From positions 1 to 38,190 of IMG/VR virus record IMGVR_UViG_3300044797_000025: a stretch of 38,190 bases of DNA; one strand, given 5' to 3'. Position numbers and translations under genes: made by a program. The stretch comes from a virus. Shown piece after piece: positions 4,615 to 26,374 of this stretch; position 1 is the stretch's first letter; every line of letters begins with the position of its first letter. The notes under the pieces are model-generated. The model worked only from the letters and a program-made list of their open reading frames with translations. It was not told the origin of the DNA and made no database searches.

Positions 4615-5013
4615 TTAAGCCGCCGGAGGTGCAACAGGTGCCGGGATCAATGCCGCCAGATCATTCAAATCTGATTGAAGATCAACCAGAAGCGAAGAGA
4701 TGTCAGCATTCAATTTTACAGGGTCCGACTTATCAGCCGCCGCTTGTTTAAGGTCAGCAACGGTCTTCTGGAACTGCGGAAGGTCTGCCTGGATTTTCGA
4801 TACGGCTGTCAGTAGGTCCGTAAGGACCGTAGGCCCTTCTGTGAGTAGGGTAAGAACATTCATCTTGTGTTTCCTCCTTCTGTCAATTAGATGGCTAAGC
4901 TTCAGCCATCCTGCGAAGCGATCTACAATATCTTCCCAATGAACAAGAAGCTGAGTCAAGAATATCACAATCCCGGCGAGCTTGTGTCCTGTGTTTAGGA
5001 ACCAGCTAAGCAT
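4615..5013 (-). CDS. Membrane-anchored protein of the lysis cassette with internal start, 132 aa
   Basis: ATG 5013 shares its A with the endolysin TAA. Residues about 11-28 (KLAGIVIFLTQLLVHWED) form one hydrophobic segment, followed by a basic stretch (DRRRKHK). From residue 51 a helical, soluble part ends in an Ala/Pro tail. A strong AAGGAGG site (4873-4879) stands nine bases before an in-frame ATG at 4863, so an 82-residue form lacking the membrane segment is likely. The dual-start layout recalls holin/antiholin pairs, but the topology differs from known ones. It could instead be two genes joined in frame. Confidence 0.65.
   Translation of the reverse strand: MLSWFLNTGHKLAGIVIFLTQLLVHWEDIVDRFAGWLKLSHLIDRRRKHKMNVLTLLTEGPTVLTDLLTAVSKIQADLPQFQKTVADLKQAAADKSDPVKLNADISSLLVDLQSDLNDLAALIPAPVAPPAA
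4873..4879 (-). promoter_or_regulatory. Strong internal ribosome binding site
   Basis: AAGGAGG on the minus strand, nine bases upstream of the in-frame ATG at 4863 inside the 4615-5013 gene. It is better than the site of the full-length start and predicts a second, shorter product. Confidence 0.7.
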
Positions 5014-5360
5014 TACGTCCCAGCTTCCCACCAGACAACGTTCGGTGACAATGTCGGACTATCATCAGCATGTAAGTGAGCGGAATATACGCCGATTCTG
5101 TTAAACCCAGCTCCTAATAGCCCCTTAATCATCGCGTAACGCGTCTGGCTGTCGCTACAGGCTAAATCTACACCGTTTCCGGTCAGATGGGACGAATCAG
5201 GAACGGACTCTGGTAAAGCCGCGTTTTCGGCCACTGTACGCAGGCCGCAAGTGATGACAAATGGTACTTGAGCCATTCCACGAGCAATAGACAGTTTTTG
5301 GCATGTTGAGTCTTGAAGACCCGACACCTCTTCGTCGCTGAAGAACTGATATTTTCCCAT
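5013..5360 (-). CDS. Endolysin, M15-family peptidase (D,D/L,D type), 115 aa
   Basis: Compact peptidoglycan peptidase. Residues 57-66 (SHLTGNGVDL) give the His58-(x6)-Asp65 zinc motif of the M15 family, and 95-99 (HLHAD) gives the second His pair with Asp99. Length fits single-domain phage endolysins such as Peptidase_M15_3. It should cut peptide stems of peptidoglycan at host lysis. No signal peptide is seen, so it needs a holin to reach the wall. GGGAGGG precedes ATG 5360. Flanking membrane genes make this a lysis cassette. Confidence 0.9.
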   Translation of the reverse strand: MGKYQFFSDEEVSGLQDSTCQKLSIARGMAQVPFVITCGLRTVAENAALPESVPDSSHLTGNGVDLACSDSQTRYAMIKGLLGAGFNRIGVYSAHLHADDSPTLSPNVVWWEAGT

Positions 5361-6296: not shown

Positions 6297-7826
6297 TTAC
6301 CGAACCCTCCTAGCCGTAATTGATCCGGTATCTACTACGGGTGTTCCTGCAGAAAATACCGCTTTTACTTTTAGGTATATTGTTGTGCTGGCGGCAATGG
6401 ATACCCGAACATTTGCAATCACAATTTGTGTCTCTGCGGGTGTTGTGGAACTAGAAGAATTTAGAAGAAGCATTCTGTTGAAAGCATTAGCGCTTGTAAA
6501 GGAGTTCCCTGATTCGCCAGTCGACACATATAAAAGTTGTTCTGTCCATGTTGCTGTTCCTATCGAATAATTCACCATCCCAGTAACATTCCAATCACCA
6601 CTCGATAAAACAATCGAAGTTATATCTTGCCCCATATTTGTGGTTGTTATGTTGACAGATCCTACTGACGAGAAAACATATTCGCCAACATTCCCGGCAA
6701 GAGCGTTATCAGCCAAGGTTGACCCGACCACCCCATAAAGGCTGGTACTTGAAAATTGGATATTTTGACCATAGAGTGCGGGTCCATTCTGATAGAAAGT
6801 TGTTCCCGGCAGAATCGTGTTTGATGTATGAAGAACAACATATCCACCACTTCCTAAGATCGTCCGTGTTGAGATTGTGACGGCCAGGCTCGATATCGTC
6901 ACTTCTGAGACTTGGTTAGGAGAGAAAACCATGTTGCCGCCGCCGTTAGCAGTCGTCGCCGTCTCAATATCCATTTCGCCGCCGTTCCAAAAGTTCATGT
7001 TCTGCTGAGAACTCTGGTTCGACTGAACTTCGTTTGTTTGCGGCGATCCGTTATTGCCGATGACAAGAGATCCTAAATTAGCCCCATAGCGAGTTAGGTT
7101 GAGCGGTTTCTGATCCAATATCTGAAATTGCGTTGCTTGGTTTTGACTACCTACCGTGAATATCGGTTGACCGCCCGCGCCTGGGGCGCTTCCGCTGTAC
7201 ACAGTTAAAACTCCTGGAGACGGATCAGTGGTTCCGGCAAGGTTTGTTACGGTCATAGAGCTTTGAATGGTCATGCTGGAAGAGGTAACATAACTTAAAG
7301 CACCGCTAAGGGTTCCAGAATTATTGTATTGAATTTGACCTGAAGTTCCCCCTGCCCCAACGTTCGCAGAAGGCAAAATACCGCCAACAGAATTTGAGTT
7401 CGTAAGATTAACTGCCGCCCATGTCGGTATTTGACCAGCTCCACCCGATTGAAGAACGCCGCCAGATGCACCAATTGACCCAGAAATTGACCACGGCCCA
7501 TTCTGATAGAAAGTCGCTCCTGCAATGATGGTGTTTGAAGAAACTTGGATTGTACTTACCAAAACACCGAACTCATTTGTCCAAGTAAACGAGCCAGGAG
7601 AAACAATCCCGCTTCCGCTACCCCCACCAGAAGCACTTATCGTTACGCCTGACGACGTTGTGGATACGGTAATATTCGATCCCGCTCCTATACTTGTCGT
7701 TGAAAGAGCGGTTATATAATCAGGGTTCCCGGTAAACGGATTAAAGACGGTCTTGGTCTGCTCTGCGTAAGTACATGAGCAAAGAAAGACAATCAGGGGA
7801 ATTGATAGGTGGTTCTTAAAGACCAT
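6297..7826 (-). CDS. Fibre-like protein with signal peptide, 509 aa
   Basis: Starts at ATG 7826 with MVFKNHLSIPLIVFLCSCTY, a signal peptide with a lipobox-like Cys (FLCSC). A longer frame from 7934 lacks this logic and overlaps the previous gene. Then comes FNPFTGNPDYITAL and a Ser/Thr/Gly-rich beta region typical of phage fibres. It has an internal repeat (ATFYQNGP and TTFYQNGP) and a module at about residues 160-319 shared with the 835-residue protein (MNFWNGGEMDI). The C-terminal third looks like a compact beta domain. Likely a surface or tail-fibre protein. The signal is unusual for a virion part. Confidence 0.75.
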   Translation of the reverse strand: MVFKNHLSIPLIVFLCSCTYAEQTKTVFNPFTGNPDYITALSTTSIGAGSNITVSTTSSGVTISASGGGSGSGIVSPGSFTWTNEFGVLVSTIQVSSNTIIAGATFYQNGPWSISGSIGASGGVLQSGGAGQIPTWAAVNLTNSNSVGGILPSANVGAGGTSGQIQYNNSGTLSGALSYVTSSSMTIQSSMTVTNLAGTTDPSPGVLTVYSGSAPGAGGQPIFTVGSQNQATQFQILDQKPLNLTRYGANLGSLVIGNNGSPQTNEVQSNQSSQQNMNFWNGGEMDIETATTANGGGNMVFSPNQVSEVTISSLAVTISTRTILGSGGYVVLHTSNTILPGTTFYQNGPALYGQNIQFSSTSLYGVVGSTLADNALAGNVGEYVFSSVGSVNITTTNMGQDITSIVLSSGDWNVTGMVNYSIGTATWTEQLLYVSTGESGNSFTSANAFNRMLLLNSSSSTTPAETQIVIANVRVSIAASTTIYLKVKAVFSAGTPVVDTGSITARRVR

Positions 7827-8050
7827 ATAACCCCTGTGAGCGTGGAATAGTCGGACACCAGATTGTTTGTGTCGTAGCGATACGACGTAATGACCCAGCC
7901 AGGCGACGTTTGCGCCGTGTTCGGAGCCGCCCATCCCTGATACAAGATCCCGTTGTTTGGACCGCTGTTATCTAAAAGAACTTGCGGCGGTGTTCGGCCT
8001 AGTTCGTATTGAAGAAGCTTTTCAGGGACAGGTAGAATTATTCCGCTCAT
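7793..8050 (-). CDS. Small protein between hydrolase and fibre, 85 aa
   Basis: ATG 8050 overlaps the hydrolase TGA and the end overlaps the fibre start by 34 bases. MSGIILPVPEKLLQYELGRT opens it; the rest is beta-type (GWVITSYRYD). Its place suggests a fibre or spike accessory. No domain is recognised. Confidence 0.6.
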   Translation of the reverse strand: MSGIILPVPEKLLQYELGRTPPQVLLDNSGPNNGILYQGWAAPNTAQTSPGWVITSYRYDTNNLVSDYSTLTGVIWSLRTTYQFP

Positions 8051-10101
8051 TGGATTAGAACTCCTCCATTAACGGTCAGCGCTCCGTTAAACGTCGCGAG
8101 CGGGCCTGATCCTGAGATGATGGTCGCTAAATTCTGCCGCGCCGTTTCCCAGTCGCTTGGGTTAAGATCCCAGGGCCTACCGCCATAATGGTAAGTACAA
8201 TCCGCGCTCGTAAAACAGGTGATGTCCCACAATGCCTTCGGAACAAGCGTTTCGACAATAGCTGTTGTCGAGCTGGGATTAATGGCATAGGACGTTTTCA
8301 GATAATCGTAGTCGTTAATTGAGCGCCGAACAAGTTTTGCGCGAAGACTCATCACAGGCCCCAAGAATCCTAAGTTAGCCGCCGTGTAAGTCGATACCTC
8401 TGTCCCTGGATACATCCAGACGCCATCCCCATTCCCATAGTTATATCCGTAATGACCAAAACTCGCGCTTGTCGATGGGTAACTGTCATATCCGAAGGTC
8501 TTCGCTTGGTTCCATAAAGGGTTTTCAAAAGGCGTCTGATTGCCGGGGTTGTACCAGTTATCCGTTTGCCACTGAAAATGGCCCTGCACGCCTTTCACGT
8601 AGTCGGCCCAAACTCCTTCCCATGCTGATACGCCATCATCCTCAGTCGCATTTGGCGTCCCGTTTGTTGGGGGATGACCATTGTAGGCCCATCCCTGCGT
8701 CGATCCCGTTGTTTCATAAGCCGCCGCCGCGCTGATCCAGTTGGTCTGCGTGTATCCCGTTGGTCCGTACCAACCTGTCGAAGCAGGCATGTTGATATAT
8801 GGCGCAGTCGCAAGAGGAAGAACCCATTTGTTCGTCACCCAGGAATTGACCGTGTAACCTGAAGTCTGCGCCGCCGAAATCGTACTCATCCACGTTGACC
8901 ACTCGTTTGTAAGCGTGAGATTTGATGGTTCATCAGCTAAATAAACAAATGACCGCGTGCCTGGATAATTGTTTTTGAAGTAAGCGCCCCAACTTGACGT
9001 AGCAACGGAAAAGAGCGTCGAATTCGTTTGACTCCAATTCGGATTGAGTGTCCATTGGCCGTAGGTTCCGATTGAGTAAATGGATAAGCCAGTCCCGATC
9101 CCTGGTCCCTGATAACCGTAAGAGGACGTGAAAAGGTTTCCACTAAGCATCAGTTGGTATTTCGCTGACGGAAAGAAGCTGGTAGTCACATCCGGCTCAT
9201 CGCCTATCGGAATCATTCTGTGACGATGGAGAGCTTGATAGAAAGCCTCATCCGTTGACACACAAGCCGCTGTCGCACATCCAGCGCCATGCGCGATACC
9301 GTTCAGCCGATAATTGATGTTATCCTCATTTACGTCGGTGATATAGTTGTAGTTGGGTTGGTCTGGAAGCGTTCCGCTATAAACCGTGACATGGATAGGA
9401 ATAGCCGTCGAAAGCGTGACACCTTCGTAAACGTTCAATGTCCCAGAATAAAATCCAGCAGTAAGCGCTTTTCTTAAATATATATCAATCCATACCCCTT
9501 GACTGGTGCTGGCGGCGACAGGGAACGTTGTCTCACATTCTTCTGGTATAAGTGCGTCTGGAAAGAATTTGTTGGCGTCCGGGCGCGTAGACCAAAGGCA
9601 CGATCCGTTACAGATCCCGTCATTGTTTCCGTTCACCGTGTAAGGATTTTGGAACCGGGGGGGAACGTCTCGTTCTTCATAGGGTTGATACGGCCACTGG
9701 GTTTCAGACATCCCTTGAATCTGAACGTAAGTGGAAACGAAAACTTCCACATCTCTATTGGCGTAGTTCGTGACGGAAGCGCAAAGAACGTCAGTACTTG
9801 AAATGACGGAACCGCCAGGCCCGCTAATCGGGCTCAGTGACACGCTCACGCTCGACGCATTTGACGCGCCGCCCTGAAGCCAAAGCATTCCGCCAATCAT
9901 CTCATTGTGAAATCCGGCCATCTTAATGTTCGTACCGTCCCAGTTAGGAGAAATGGCGCAAGTCGAGCATGTCCCGTTCGGCCAGAGGTCTTGCTGAGAA
10001 ACTTTATACCCGCCGTTCCCGAACCACGCGCCGGAAAGGTTGACGTAACACTCGGCTTGAATAGGAAGAAGAACCCCAATAAAAATGATTGCCCATTTCA
10101 T
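8047..10101 (-). CDS. GH123/DUF4091-type glycoside hydrolase with signal peptide, 684 aa
   Basis: Sec signal peptide MKWAIIFIGVLLPIQAEC. Residues about 20-240 are a beta domain with the usual segment before the catalytic part (FFPDALIPEE, GVWIDIYLRKALTAGFYSG). The catalytic barrel carries FVYLADEPSN; Asp390-Glu391 match the adjacent Asp-Glu pair of GH123 N-acetyl-beta-galactosaminidases. Later hallmarks are FQWQTDNWYNPG, GDGVWMYPG and LRAKLVRRSINDYDYL. About ten cysteines, several paired, fit an exported protein. It sits among fibre genes, so it may be a spike or released enzyme cutting host surface glycan. Substrate is inferred from the family only. Confidence 0.75.
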   Translation of the reverse strand: MKWAIIFIGVLLPIQAECYVNLSGAWFGNGGYKVSQQDLWPNGTCSTCAISPNWDGTNIKMAGFHNEMIGGMLWLQGGASNASSVSVSLSPISGPGGSVISSTDVLCASVTNYANRDVEVFVSTYVQIQGMSETQWPYQPYEERDVPPRFQNPYTVNGNNDGICNGSCLWSTRPDANKFFPDALIPEECETTFPVAASTSQGVWIDIYLRKALTAGFYSGTLNVYEGVTLSTAIPIHVTVYSGTLPDQPNYNYITDVNEDNINYRLNGIAHGAGCATAACVSTDEAFYQALHRHRMIPIGDEPDVTTSFFPSAKYQLMLSGNLFTSSYGYQGPGIGTGLSIYSIGTYGQWTLNPNWSQTNSTLFSVATSSWGAYFKNNYPGTRSFVYLADEPSNLTLTNEWSTWMSTISAAQTSGYTVNSWVTNKWVLPLATAPYINMPASTGWYGPTGYTQTNWISAAAAYETTGSTQGWAYNGHPPTNGTPNATEDDGVSAWEGVWADYVKGVQGHFQWQTDNWYNPGNQTPFENPLWNQAKTFGYDSYPSTSASFGHYGYNYGNGDGVWMYPGTEVSTYTAANLGFLGPVMSLRAKLVRRSINDYDYLKTSYAINPSSTTAIVETLVPKALWDITCFTSADCTYHYGGRPWDLNPSDWETARQNLATIISGSGPLATFNGALTVNGGVLIQ

Positions 10102-12608
10102 TAATTACAGTACCAGGTTCCATTAAGACGTTTGGCGAACGCTCCGTTGCCTGATCCAGCGCAGACGCACGCCGCTGAAATAACGCCTACACAAGTGGCA
10201 GAAGTCGTGACGGTACAATCAGAACAATAGGCGATAGTTCCGTTCGCCGCATTTGGAAGCGTGGCGTTCGTGAAAGGAGAAAGCGTCACACCTGACGTAG
10301 ATATCGTTACCTCATTAACGGTCAGAGGCAAAAACACGATGTTCTTACCGCCACTGGAAGTTAAATCCGTCTGGATATCCATCTCGCCAGAATTCCAAAA
10401 GTTGATAAATTGATTGTTGGTTTGATCCGTGGTGATTTTCTGGTTGATGGTGTTGTTTAATTGTCCGACTTCCAAATGGCCTGACTGTGAACCGTAAGAG
10501 GTCATGCCAACAGCAGTCTGATCTTTAACGCTCAGTTGACCGGATTGATTCGCGCTTCCAACCATAAGAAGTGGTTGACCAGAATACGCCGCCCCACCAT
10601 AAACGTCAAGCACGCCAGGGGTACTATTCTGCGCCCCGTTGGTCGTTACCGACATCGAACTAGTTATGGTCATGCTGGAAGAGGTGACGAAGCTCTTAGC
10701 CCCGCCAAACGATCCGGCATTATCGTATTGGAGCTGACCTGTAGAGCCGCCAGGAGTGCCGCCACTTCCTGACCCACAAGCCGCGCCAGTATCGCCAAGC
10801 GTATAAGATCCCGTCCAATCAACACAGTGACCAGCCGTTACAGACGGGCCGCTTGAGGCAGTAACGGAATAAGTAGAGCCCGAAACTGTGAGAATAATAT
10901 TTCCGTTCCCAGCCCCATTAACCGTCATGCTCCCGACAGTAGCGCCATACGTCACGCCAAGACCGCCGGACCCAGAAACCGTGATGCTCGACGAGAAAGT
11001 ACGCATGTCCCCCTGAACCGCCGCCGCTGTCGCGACAACAGATCCTACGCCGGAAGCAGTCACGGCACCAGTTAGCGCAGTAATTCCGCCACCACCACCA
11101 CCGCCTGACGCAGATGAGATAGCAACCCAGCTTGTACTATTTGAGGCTGTCGATACGTATAAGGCGTTAAGCGTCGTATCATACCCCATGATTCCAGGCG
11201 TCGAGATAGAGATAGCGAACCGCTGGGTTGTTGTCCAACGCGGAGGAAGAAACCCTTTGTCGGTTGACCGAAGTTCAAGCTCTGCGTTCGCTTGCGGTTT
11301 TTCGTTTGTCGTGCATCCGAATTCGACGCAAGAGTTATCTAGGAATAGTCCTGATTGCTGTAGAGGGTCAACGACAAGAGCCGTATGCATGAGTCCATCC
11401 ACGCCGCCCATCACACGGAAAGCGCCAGGGATATCAGCCGGATCGCCCATCTGCACAAGAGCATCCCCACCGCGCTCGTTAAAGAGGGTCGTATTGCTAG
11501 GCGCAACCAGAAGGCCGCCTTGACTGGTTGTGTCGTTGTAAGTGCTGGAATAGACTTGATACCCACCCGTCCCAAATAGGGAATAACTTAGGTACTCAGG
11601 AGCATAACCAGTAATGCTTACCATCCCGTCGCCGCCGTAGCCAACAGGATTTGTGACAAAGGTATTTGCGGTAAATGCCCCACCAGGGACGTAGCTAAGG
11701 TTCGTCGTTCCTGCAAGAAGGCCGGCCGTAGTGCTTGCAAAAGGAACATCAAACTGTTGAAGGTTGCTCGTCGTTATAGAAGAAACGGTGATGACGCCCG
11801 TAGCATTAATCTGACCTGTTGAACTCATCACCAGAGGAAACGTTGCCGATGGCGTATTAGAAGGGAGCGTATAAACCGGATTTGAACTGGACGTATATGG
11901 GCTCCCTTGTATGAAAGTGTTTTTGCCATTGACGCTCTGTAATTCAAGTTGCGGAGAGACACCAGACCCGTCGACGTAATTGACGCTGAATACTGCCGGA
12001 CCTAAATCATTAAACACAAATGCCGGACCGGGAGAATTCGTTGGTCCCATTCCAGGGGAAGAGGTCGTAAAAACATCGAATTGACCATAGGTATAAAGAG
12101 CCGGAATACCAAGGATATCACTTGGCGTAAAAAGAGTGTTTGATTGTAGCGTCGGACCAGGAGGAAGAACAAGCGTTCCGGCAGTAAGCTGGCCCGTCAC
12201 GTTCTCGCTCGAAATCGTGACAGGAATTGAAATGGCGACGCTTGAACTGGTCGCATTAAACCCAGCTATCCCAGAAACAACGTTCGATGATCCCGTCTGC
12301 GAATAGGCCGCAATCTGGTTCTTCGGAGAAACCGTAATTGTCCCAGACGCTCCAGATCCACCGCCGCCAGCCCCGCATACCCCGCCTGTCCCCTGAATAC
12401 CGCCATTCACGCTTTCAAGGCATTGAACGCCAGTCACATACGTTAAACTTAGGCTTGTCGTTACCGTTCCAGTAGACGTATTGAACCCGCCGGATTGCGT
12501 TGCGCCCGTCGACAATTGGACGTAGGAGATGATCGGGCCTATAGACCACACTTGAGAGGCCAAAAATAATGAAAAGAATGTCTTGCTAAAGAGAGATTTA
12601 AGGTTCAC
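10101..12608 (-). CDS. Large fibre-like protein with signal peptide, 835 aa
   Basis: Starts at GTG 12608 (AAGGA upstream) with MNLKSLFSKTFFSLFLASQV, a probable signal peptide. The body is Ser/Thr/Gly-rich beta repeats. A TDKGFLPPRWTTTQRF segment is typical of phage fibre tips, and a module near FINFWNSGEMDI is shared with the 509-residue fibre. The C-terminus is Cys-rich (AYCSDCTVT, WYCN) like the small 25531 protein. Most likely a host-facing fibre. It stops against the hydrolase start, so the three genes are one unit. The export signal is odd for a virion protein. Confidence 0.75.
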   Translation of the reverse strand: MNLKSLFSKTFFSLFLASQVWSIGPIISYVQLSTGATQSGGFNTSTGTVTTSLSLTYVTGVQCLESVNGGIQGTGGVCGAGGGGSGASGTITVSPKNQIAAYSQTGSSNVVSGIAGFNATSSSVAISIPVTISSENVTGQLTAGTLVLPPGPTLQSNTLFTPSDILGIPALYTYGQFDVFTTSSPGMGPTNSPGPAFVFNDLGPAVFSVNYVDGSGVSPQLELQSVNGKNTFIQGSPYTSSSNPVYTLPSNTPSATFPLVMSSTGQINATGVITVSSITTSNLQQFDVPFASTTAGLLAGTTNLSYVPGGAFTANTFVTNPVGYGGDGMVSITGYAPEYLSYSLFGTGGYQVYSSTYNDTTSQGGLLVAPSNTTLFNERGGDALVQMGDPADIPGAFRVMGGVDGLMHTALVVDPLQQSGLFLDNSCVEFGCTTNEKPQANAELELRSTDKGFLPPRWTTTQRFAISISTPGIMGYDTTLNALYVSTASNSTSWVAISSASGGGGGGGITALTGAVTASGVGSVVATAAAVQGDMRTFSSSITVSGSGGLGVTYGATVGSMTVNGAGNGNIILTVSGSTYSVTASSGPSVTAGHCVDWTGSYTLGDTGAACGSGSGGTPGGSTGQLQYDNAGSFGGAKSFVTSSSMTITSSMSVTTNGAQNSTPGVLDVYGGAAYSGQPLLMVGSANQSGQLSVKDQTAVGMTSYGSQSGHLEVGQLNNTINQKITTDQTNNQFINFWNSGEMDIQTDLTSSGGKNIVFLPLTVNEVTISTSGVTLSPFTNATLPNAANGTIAYCSDCTVTTSATCVGVISAACVCAGSGNGAFAKRLNGTWYCN

Positions 12609-25530: not shown

Positions 25531-25959
25531 CTAGTTACAGACTTGCTTGCCTTGCACTGTGCTGGACGAAGCCGCAATCCATTGATACGAATTCGCGCTA
25601 CCAGTCGAGAGACAAAGGAACGTGCTCTGACAGTTAGAACACATCACGATTTGACCAGTCGCGGCAGGAATGATCCCGCTCGCTCCCTCAATCTGAGACG
25701 ACGTCAAAGACGTTAATGCAAGAATCTGCTGGGAAGTCGCCGTGGTTGTGGCAGTAACAGTCGTGTTCGACCAGTTGAAAAGCGAACCATTCCCAACCAA
25801 GACACCGCCCGTAGTCGCAGGAATAGCTGTGCTGTTGGCCGGATACAGATACCCCGCAAACGTGTTCGTACTCGTCACAAGCGCGGGCGTGTAGTTCCCG
25901 TCAGCGCACAATAAAACCGGCAACATCAACATCCCGGCAACGGCAAGTAACTTTTTCAT
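25531..25959 (-). CDS. Small secreted protein, 142 aa
   Basis: MKKLLAVAGMLMLPVLLCAD is a clear signal peptide with a good AAAAGGAG site upstream. The mature part is Thr/Ser/Ala-rich and beta-type, ending in a Cys-containing module (GQIVMCSNCQSTFLC, QVCN) that resembles the C-terminus of the 835-residue fibre. It follows the portal by one gene. Position is structural, the signal is not; role unknown. Confidence 0.7.
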   Translation of the reverse strand: MKKLLAVAGMLMLPVLLCADGNYTPALVTSTNTFAGYLYPANSTAIPATTGGVLVGNGSLFNWSNTTVTATTTATSQQILALTSLTSSQIEGASGIIPAATGQIVMCSNCQSTFLCLSTGSANSYQWIAASSSTVQGKQVCN

Positions 25960-25975: not shown

Positions 25976-26374
25976 TTATTTTTCTCGTAAGACTGAAATC
26001 GTCGGGGTAGTCGATGGCCCCGTTCCTAACTGTACGGCATACAACTGACCCCAGTACGGAACCGTAGGGCCGTCCGGCGACCACGGCTGACAAGAAGTCG
26101 ACGTTACGCAAGGCGGAATTAAAAATCCTCCACCGTTGCCGCTCGTCATTCCAACCGATACGGTTGAAATAAGAATCGAAAAAGAAGAGTTATTAACAAT
26201 CCAGGTTCGCGTGATGAATGAATCCTGCGTCAAGATCTGCGTCGGTGACGCCGTGTTCGTCGATAAATTCATGCTCTTTGTGTCAGACGTAAACATGTTC
26301 GATCCATCCGCAGGAATGTCCGCCCACGAACAAGACGCGATCAAAAGTGGCAAAATGCAAAGAAGTTTTTTCAT
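25976..26374 (-). CDS. Small secreted protein, 132 aa
   Basis: MKKLLCILPLLIASCSWADI is a signal peptide, with LIASC close to a lipobox, so it may be a lipoprotein. The mature part is beta-rich, with SSFSILISTVSVG and a Pro/Cys loop (IPPCVTSTSCQPW). ATG 26374 overlaps the portal TGA. It forms a pair with the 25531 gene. Function unknown. Confidence 0.7.
   Translation of the reverse strand: MKKLLCILPLLIASCSWADIPADGSNMFTSDTKSMNLSTNTASPTQILTQDSFITRTWIVNNSSFSILISTVSVGMTSGNGGGFLIPPCVTSTSCQPWSPDGPTVPYWGQLYAVQLGTGPSTTPTISVLREK

Follow-up and report, generated by a model that had tools for sequence, protein, structure and literature searches.

A predicted GH123-superfamily glycoside hydrolase encoded among the fibre genes of three unrelated tailed phages

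The gene and its surroundings

The window analysed here, i.e., the whole 38,190-base stretch of a virus record, carries at positions 8047-10101 one intact open reading frame whose 684-aa product, P0001, is assigned below to the GH123 superfamily from profile, alignment and predicted fold. The coordinates are exactly those of the initial annotation, which gave no strand; the gene is on the minus strand, as are all other features of the window described here unless indicated otherwise. The FVYLADEP motif with its D390-E391 pair and the SINDYDYL motif (residues 594-601), both of which had been singled out in the annotation, are found in P0001 where it had placed them. The signal peptide that it had proposed is also plausible: the protein starts with a Sec-type N-terminus, MKWAIIFIGVLLPIQAE (mean KD 2.6 over 12 residues), in which K2 is followed by the hydrophobic stretch AIIFIGVLLPI and a QA-E cleavage-like site, and by hydropathy and composition residues ~1-17 (10051-10101) make up a putative Sec signal peptide. 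The homologue from another viral contig, L019, has a signal-peptide-like start in alignment with P0001. Several cysteines are present, as had been remarked, and two of them, C629 and C635, are common to the nearest phage homologue. The protein ends in a tail (residues 665-684, GPLATFNGALTVNGGVLIQ; 8050-8109) that is delimited by alignments and low model confidence and is missing from the closest cellular relatives.

The neighbourhood bears out the description of the locus as a phage fibre locus. Fibre-like ORFs flank the gene, the terminase (phrog_2, 4e-22) and the portal (phrog_156, 4e-10) are encoded on the same strand, and an M15-type peptidase, a probable endolysin (5013-5360; PF08291 above cut-off and phrog_894 endolysin), is encoded downstream. 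The start codon of the P0001 gene overlaps by one base (TAATG) the stop codon of the upstream gene, which encodes the 835-aa fibre-like protein 1 (10101-12608). Fibre-like protein 2 (6297-7826), read from an internal ATG (MVFKNHLS...), has a signal-like start and has in common with fibre-like protein 1 a 159-aa segment at 41%.

Several further observations concern the window as a whole. Several consecutive fibre-like ORFs, both in the window (6297-12608) and in L019 (657-9989), have signal-peptide-like starts, most of them with a mean hydropathy above 2 and many with AxA. Such starts are odd in proteins that should assemble in the cytoplasm. Two small ORFs with signal-peptide-like starts are located directly after the portal gene (25531-25959 and 25976-26374, minus strand), and two such ORFs follow the portal gene in the related phage contigs L005 (11645-12082 and 12274-12702) and L003 (13424-13825 and 13829-14989); secreted proteins inside a head-gene operon, directly after the portal, are unusual. 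A low-complexity ORF on the plus strand (1212-1601) is built nearly entirely from repeated Ser, Arg, Met and Gly (SRSGSRSMSMS...). An 8-kb contig from another dataset, L002 (IMGVR_UViG_3300044680_000103), encodes a terminase identical to that of the window over its full length and a portal identical across the 404 residues present, and, judging by these sequences, the two records are probably the same virus sampled twice.

Assignment to the GH123 superfamily

Searched alone, P0001 stays below the curated cut-offs of the Pfam GH123 models: residues 182-225 match GH123_N_2 (PF22680) at 20.9 bits (cut-off 27), and GH123_cat (PF13320) is not matched. PHROGs gave no match for P0001 alone, and NCBIfam no meaningful one. 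A PDB sequence search brought up NgaCa (8k2f) and BvGH123 (5l7v) at E ~1e-3 with the regions in the right order, and between the segment NGDGVWMYPG...SLRAKLVRRSINDYDYL of P0001 and the segments of NgaCa and NgaAt aligned to it the identity is 46-47%. It is from these aligned segments that the DUF4091 signature, NGDGVWMYPG...GPVMSLRAKLVRRSINDYDYL (residues 557-601; 8299-8433), is recognized, and, like the region that joins the two domains in the superfamily, it has YPG and then an Arg (NGDGVWMYPG and SLR, as aligned with NgaCa and NgaAt).

The profile search that the initial annotation had called for came out favourably through homologues. A two-row alignment of P0001 and an NgaCa fragment was used as a seed and found L019 among viral contigs; a three-row alignment, run against genomes of bacteria and archaea, yielded 59 relatives, and GH123_cat is matched at E<=0.01 by 33 of the 36 members that were aligned. 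Run against the PDB, the profile of the 36-member alignment retrieves NgaCa (7e-46), NgaDssm (8e-25), BvGH123 (6e-16), NgaAt (3e-15) and CpNga123 (about 1e-5 to 2e-5). P0001 itself scores E 3e-126 against a profile of 34 cellular homologues, a value that expresses common ancestry and not an independent discovery rate, since these homologues were collected starting from P0001; the same profile matches none of 500 shuffles of P0001 nor its reversed sequence. By sequence comparison, then, the match of P0001 to the cellular homologues is not a chance one.

The predicted catalytic pair D390-E391 (8929-8934) is invariant in all 36 aligned sequences, and so are W204, Y387, Y473 and W511 and, within the DUF4091 signature, G558, G560, Y564-P565-G566, R592 and D597. 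Nine residues are strictly conserved across the GH123 superfamily (PMC11087588), and P0001 matches all nine (D182, W204, D390, E391, Y473, G507, W511, Y564 and R587), with the correspondence drawn from the order and spacing of the motifs and from the alignment with NgaCa, not from superposition.

A structure of P0001 was predicted by AlphaFold2 with the homologue alignment as input (pLDDT 86, pTM 0.89), and the model contains the TIM barrel for which such a prediction had been proposed as a check. The two-domain fold, a beta-sandwich followed by a barrel, is predicted with high confidence. The N-terminal beta-sandwich of GH123_N type (residues 22-244; 9370-10038) is seen in the strands of the model, in the sub-cut-off PF22680 match and in homologues that pass PF19543, and the (beta/alpha)8 barrel (residues 252-510; 8572-9348) has eight alternating strands and helices with pLDDT mostly 80-98. 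Barrel strand 4 (residues 383-390 in the model) ends at D390-E391, at its C-terminal end; from this position and from homologous structures the pair would be placed in the cleft. The DUF4091 part follows the barrel.

The best 22 Foldseek matches of the model in the PDB are all chains of the GH123 superfamily, down to E 5e-20, with NgaCa at the top (E 8e-30, target TM 0.74); the first match outside GH123 has E 4e-7 and TM 0.30. Among the matches listed from predicted viral structures (BFVD), the query TM for the P0001 model is at most 0.24. Sialidase, beta-helix tailspike and GH18, GH20 or GH5 folds were considered and dropped, the PDB fold matches beyond GH123 being at TM <=0.3. The GH123/DUF4091 assignment made in the initial annotation is thus supported both by profile search and by the predicted fold.

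The enzyme in other phages

The L019 enzyme is a full-length homologue, 38-39% identical to P0001 over ~660 residues, that scores 23 against GH123_N (PF19543; cut-off 22). Its contig of 48.8 kb encodes a terminase, a tail sheath, baseplate J, a collar-type fibre, an endolysin, RecT and an integrase, by which gene content it is a contractile-tail temperate phage, and the enzyme gene comes after fibre-like ORFs bearing signal peptides and before the M15 endolysin. The third contig with the enzyme, L084, is a 27.6-kb fragment of a phage of another virion type, with genes for a coat protein of the P22 type and for a head-closure protein. Its enzyme of 712 aa, encoded by a gene that overlaps a short fibre-like ORF at the latter's stop codon, starts MAWYTQGGKVVIGPGGQIF..., has no signal peptide and passes both PF19543 (28.1 vs 22) and PF22680 (27.9 vs 27). 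In the barrel loop after the strand-5 region it has an insert with a phrog_5073 tail-fibre match (1e-4) and a match to CBM_5_12 that is below the cut-off (1e-3), so that, by sequence, the protein looks like a chimera of a cellular enzyme and a phage fibre module. The barrel insert, ~60 residues (L084 6010-6240), is also 59% identical over 39 aa to part of a phage stabilization protein (MW202722.1), at E 0.1.

The three phages have different core genes: the terminase and portal of the window find the related contigs L002, L003 and L005, whereas L019 was not found by the portal search nor the L084 fragment by the terminase search. When the window and L019 are compared in the proteins of their fibre regions, the enzyme alone is clearly homologous, and the M15 peptidases match weakly. 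These sequence comparisons show three unrelated phages to have the same predicted enzyme in their fibre regions.

Further searches for viral copies gave negative results. Single-sequence searches with P0001 found no relatives in viral contigs, genome contigs, phage records or plasmid records, and three phage queries and then one with a cellular relative found no homologue in 50,697 phage records, a negative that is bounded by the collections and sensitivities searched and is no proof of absence. A DNA pattern of the canonical GI[DE]DY[DE]Y motif had 13 viral matches, none of them GH123; most belong to one helicase-like protein family and the rest are chance matches. A search with the window portal through 388 Verrucomicrobiota and 396 Acidobacteriota genomes revealed no convincing prophage, and among open-access papers we found none on a phage GH123.

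Cellular relatives and origin

In the phylogenetic tree P0001 and the L019 enzyme are sisters (100/100) within a well-supported clade, the cellular members of which come from Chloroflexota, Planctomycetota, Verrucomicrobiota, Acidobacteriota, Myxococcota, Pseudomonadota and an archaeal bin. The L084 enzyme belongs to the same clade, apart from the other two in the best tree, and a single origin of the three phage genes is not rejected (AU test p 0.16). The branch of P0001 is long, 1.3-1.4 changes per column. One cellular relative (L024) lies inside an exopolysaccharide cluster with a UDP-sugar dehydrogenase, an MBOAT protein, an initiating sugar transferase and a GT4 enzyme, two others (L023 and L025) adjoin glycosyltransferases, and L021 is located among sulfatase-like genes, named from sequence and not profiled. 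L020, which is surrounded by unrelated housekeeping genes, including a SecA-like gene, counts against the function proposed below.

Proposed function

The Group 1 enzymes of the superfamily have a cleft that is open past the -2 subsite and release oligosaccharides, and long repeating exopolysaccharides were suggested as their targets; no activity was seen on chondroitin sulfates or on the tested GA1 and Gb5 oligosaccharides, and their natural substrate is not established (PMC11087588), which counts against the function proposed here. Because the nearest solved structure to P0001 is the Group 1 enzyme NgaCa and not a classical monosaccharide-releasing GH123, endo-type action fits P0001 better than removal of terminal GalNAc. 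The exopolysaccharide link of Group 1, together with the placement of the gene in the fibre region, leads us to regard P0001 as probably a phage endo-type, substrate-assisted hydrolase of the GH123 superfamily that depolymerises a HexNAc-containing glycan of the host surface.

By analogy with the chemistry of the superfamily (PMC11087588), cleavage would be retaining and assisted by the 2-acetamido group of the substrate. The HexNAc, probably GalNAc, would be beta-linked, and D390 would position its 2-acetamido group for attack on C1, giving an oxazolinium intermediate, with E391 as the acid/base and the sugar held by W511 and Y473. The genomic context suggests that the bonds cut would be inside a HexNAc-containing exopolysaccharide or capsule of the host, which may let particles reach the host surface or progeny escape slime.

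How the enzyme is deployed may differ between the phages. The putative signal peptide argues against simple cytoplasmic assembly of P0001 onto virions, and on P0001 and the L019 enzyme it suggests export by the infected cell, as for some endolysins; in the window phage, where the enzyme would be made with the fibres, such export is the likelier deployment. The copy in L084, which has no signal and carries a fibre/CBM-like module, may instead be associated with the virion.

The same enzyme with the same chemistry could alternatively be exported to alter the host and not to aid entry: by trimming a surface glycan, it would block further adsorption or free progeny from receptor debris during infection or, in the L019 phage, lysogeny. 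We find this unlikely. The putative signal peptides on P0001 and the L019 enzyme, the signal-like starts of several neighbouring fibre-like ORFs and the integrase of the L019 phage are all in its favour, but the P0001 gene lies within a late virion operon and is coupled to a fibre gene, and the L084 copy has a fibre-type insert and no signal peptide. It is very improbable that the gene is an auxiliary metabolic gene that makes environmental GalNAc glycans available to infected cells as food, since although the closest cellular relatives are secreted and one of them (L021) is in a sulfatase-rich locus, the phage genes occupy the fibre region in three phages, with no adjacent genes for sugar uptake or catabolism. 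A catalytically dead GH123 fold serving as a glycan-binding fibre accessory, as the long branch of P0001 and its lack of a GH123_cat match could suggest, is hardly credible given that P0001 keeps every catalytic and substrate-contact residue of the superfamily.

Returning to the depolymerisation of the host coat, a wider and tentative reading, which we consider rather unlikely, is that phages have in the GH123-type enzymes a class of exopolysaccharide depolymerases that has gone unrecognised, acquired from the exopolysaccharide clusters of bacteria and dispersed over tailed phages unrelated to one another, the enzyme in some of these phages being Sec-exported together with the accompanying fibre-like proteins. 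The exported glycan-cutting set would then work outside the infected cell, either instead of joining the particle or before doing so.

What is found here is a known superfamily in a new setting, a GH123-type enzyme common to at least three phage types. Its occurrence in three unrelated tailed phages would add a fold and a chemistry, the substrate-assisted cleavage of beta-HexNAc bonds, and the Group 1 enzymes gain a testable hypothesis about their natural substrate, namely bacterial exopolysaccharides. The phage enzymes may also be possible tools for cutting GalNAc-rich biofilm matrices.

Comparison with known enzymes

The known polysaccharide-cutting enzymes of phages are mostly beta-helix tailspikes, lyases and sialidases, and phage depolymerases and tailspikes comprise beta-helix hydrolases as well as beta-helix lyases and endosialidases. 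P0001 resembles these depolymerases and tailspikes in that its gene is in the fibre region and a host surface glycan is its expected target, and differs from them in its predicted TIM-barrel GH123 fold, which is neither a beta-helix nor a sialidase. For the export of a phage enzyme by a signal peptide there is a precedent in Lys44 of phage fOg44, a Sec-exported endolysin (PMC6116005). The target of Lys44 is peptidoglycan, whereas the window virus has a separate M15 endolysin gene beside that of P0001.

With the classical GH123 enzymes BvGH123 and CpNga123 (PDB 5l7r and 5fqe) P0001 has the superfamily and the catalytic pair in common, but in these enzymes the site has the form of a pocket and GalNAc is released as a single sugar (PMC11087588), and P0001 is nearer to the open-cleft Group 1. 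Its best match by both profile and fold is NgaCa (PDB 8k2f/8k2g; PMC11087588), a beta-N-acetylgalactosaminidase of Group 1 from Cohnella abietis that releases oligosaccharides. With NgaCa it has in common the predicted two-domain fold, a DE pair where strand 4 ends and the DUF4091 signature. Unlike NgaCa, to which it is ~17% identical, P0001 is encoded by a phage, has longer loops (684 vs 516 aa) and carries a putative signal peptide and a C-terminal tail.
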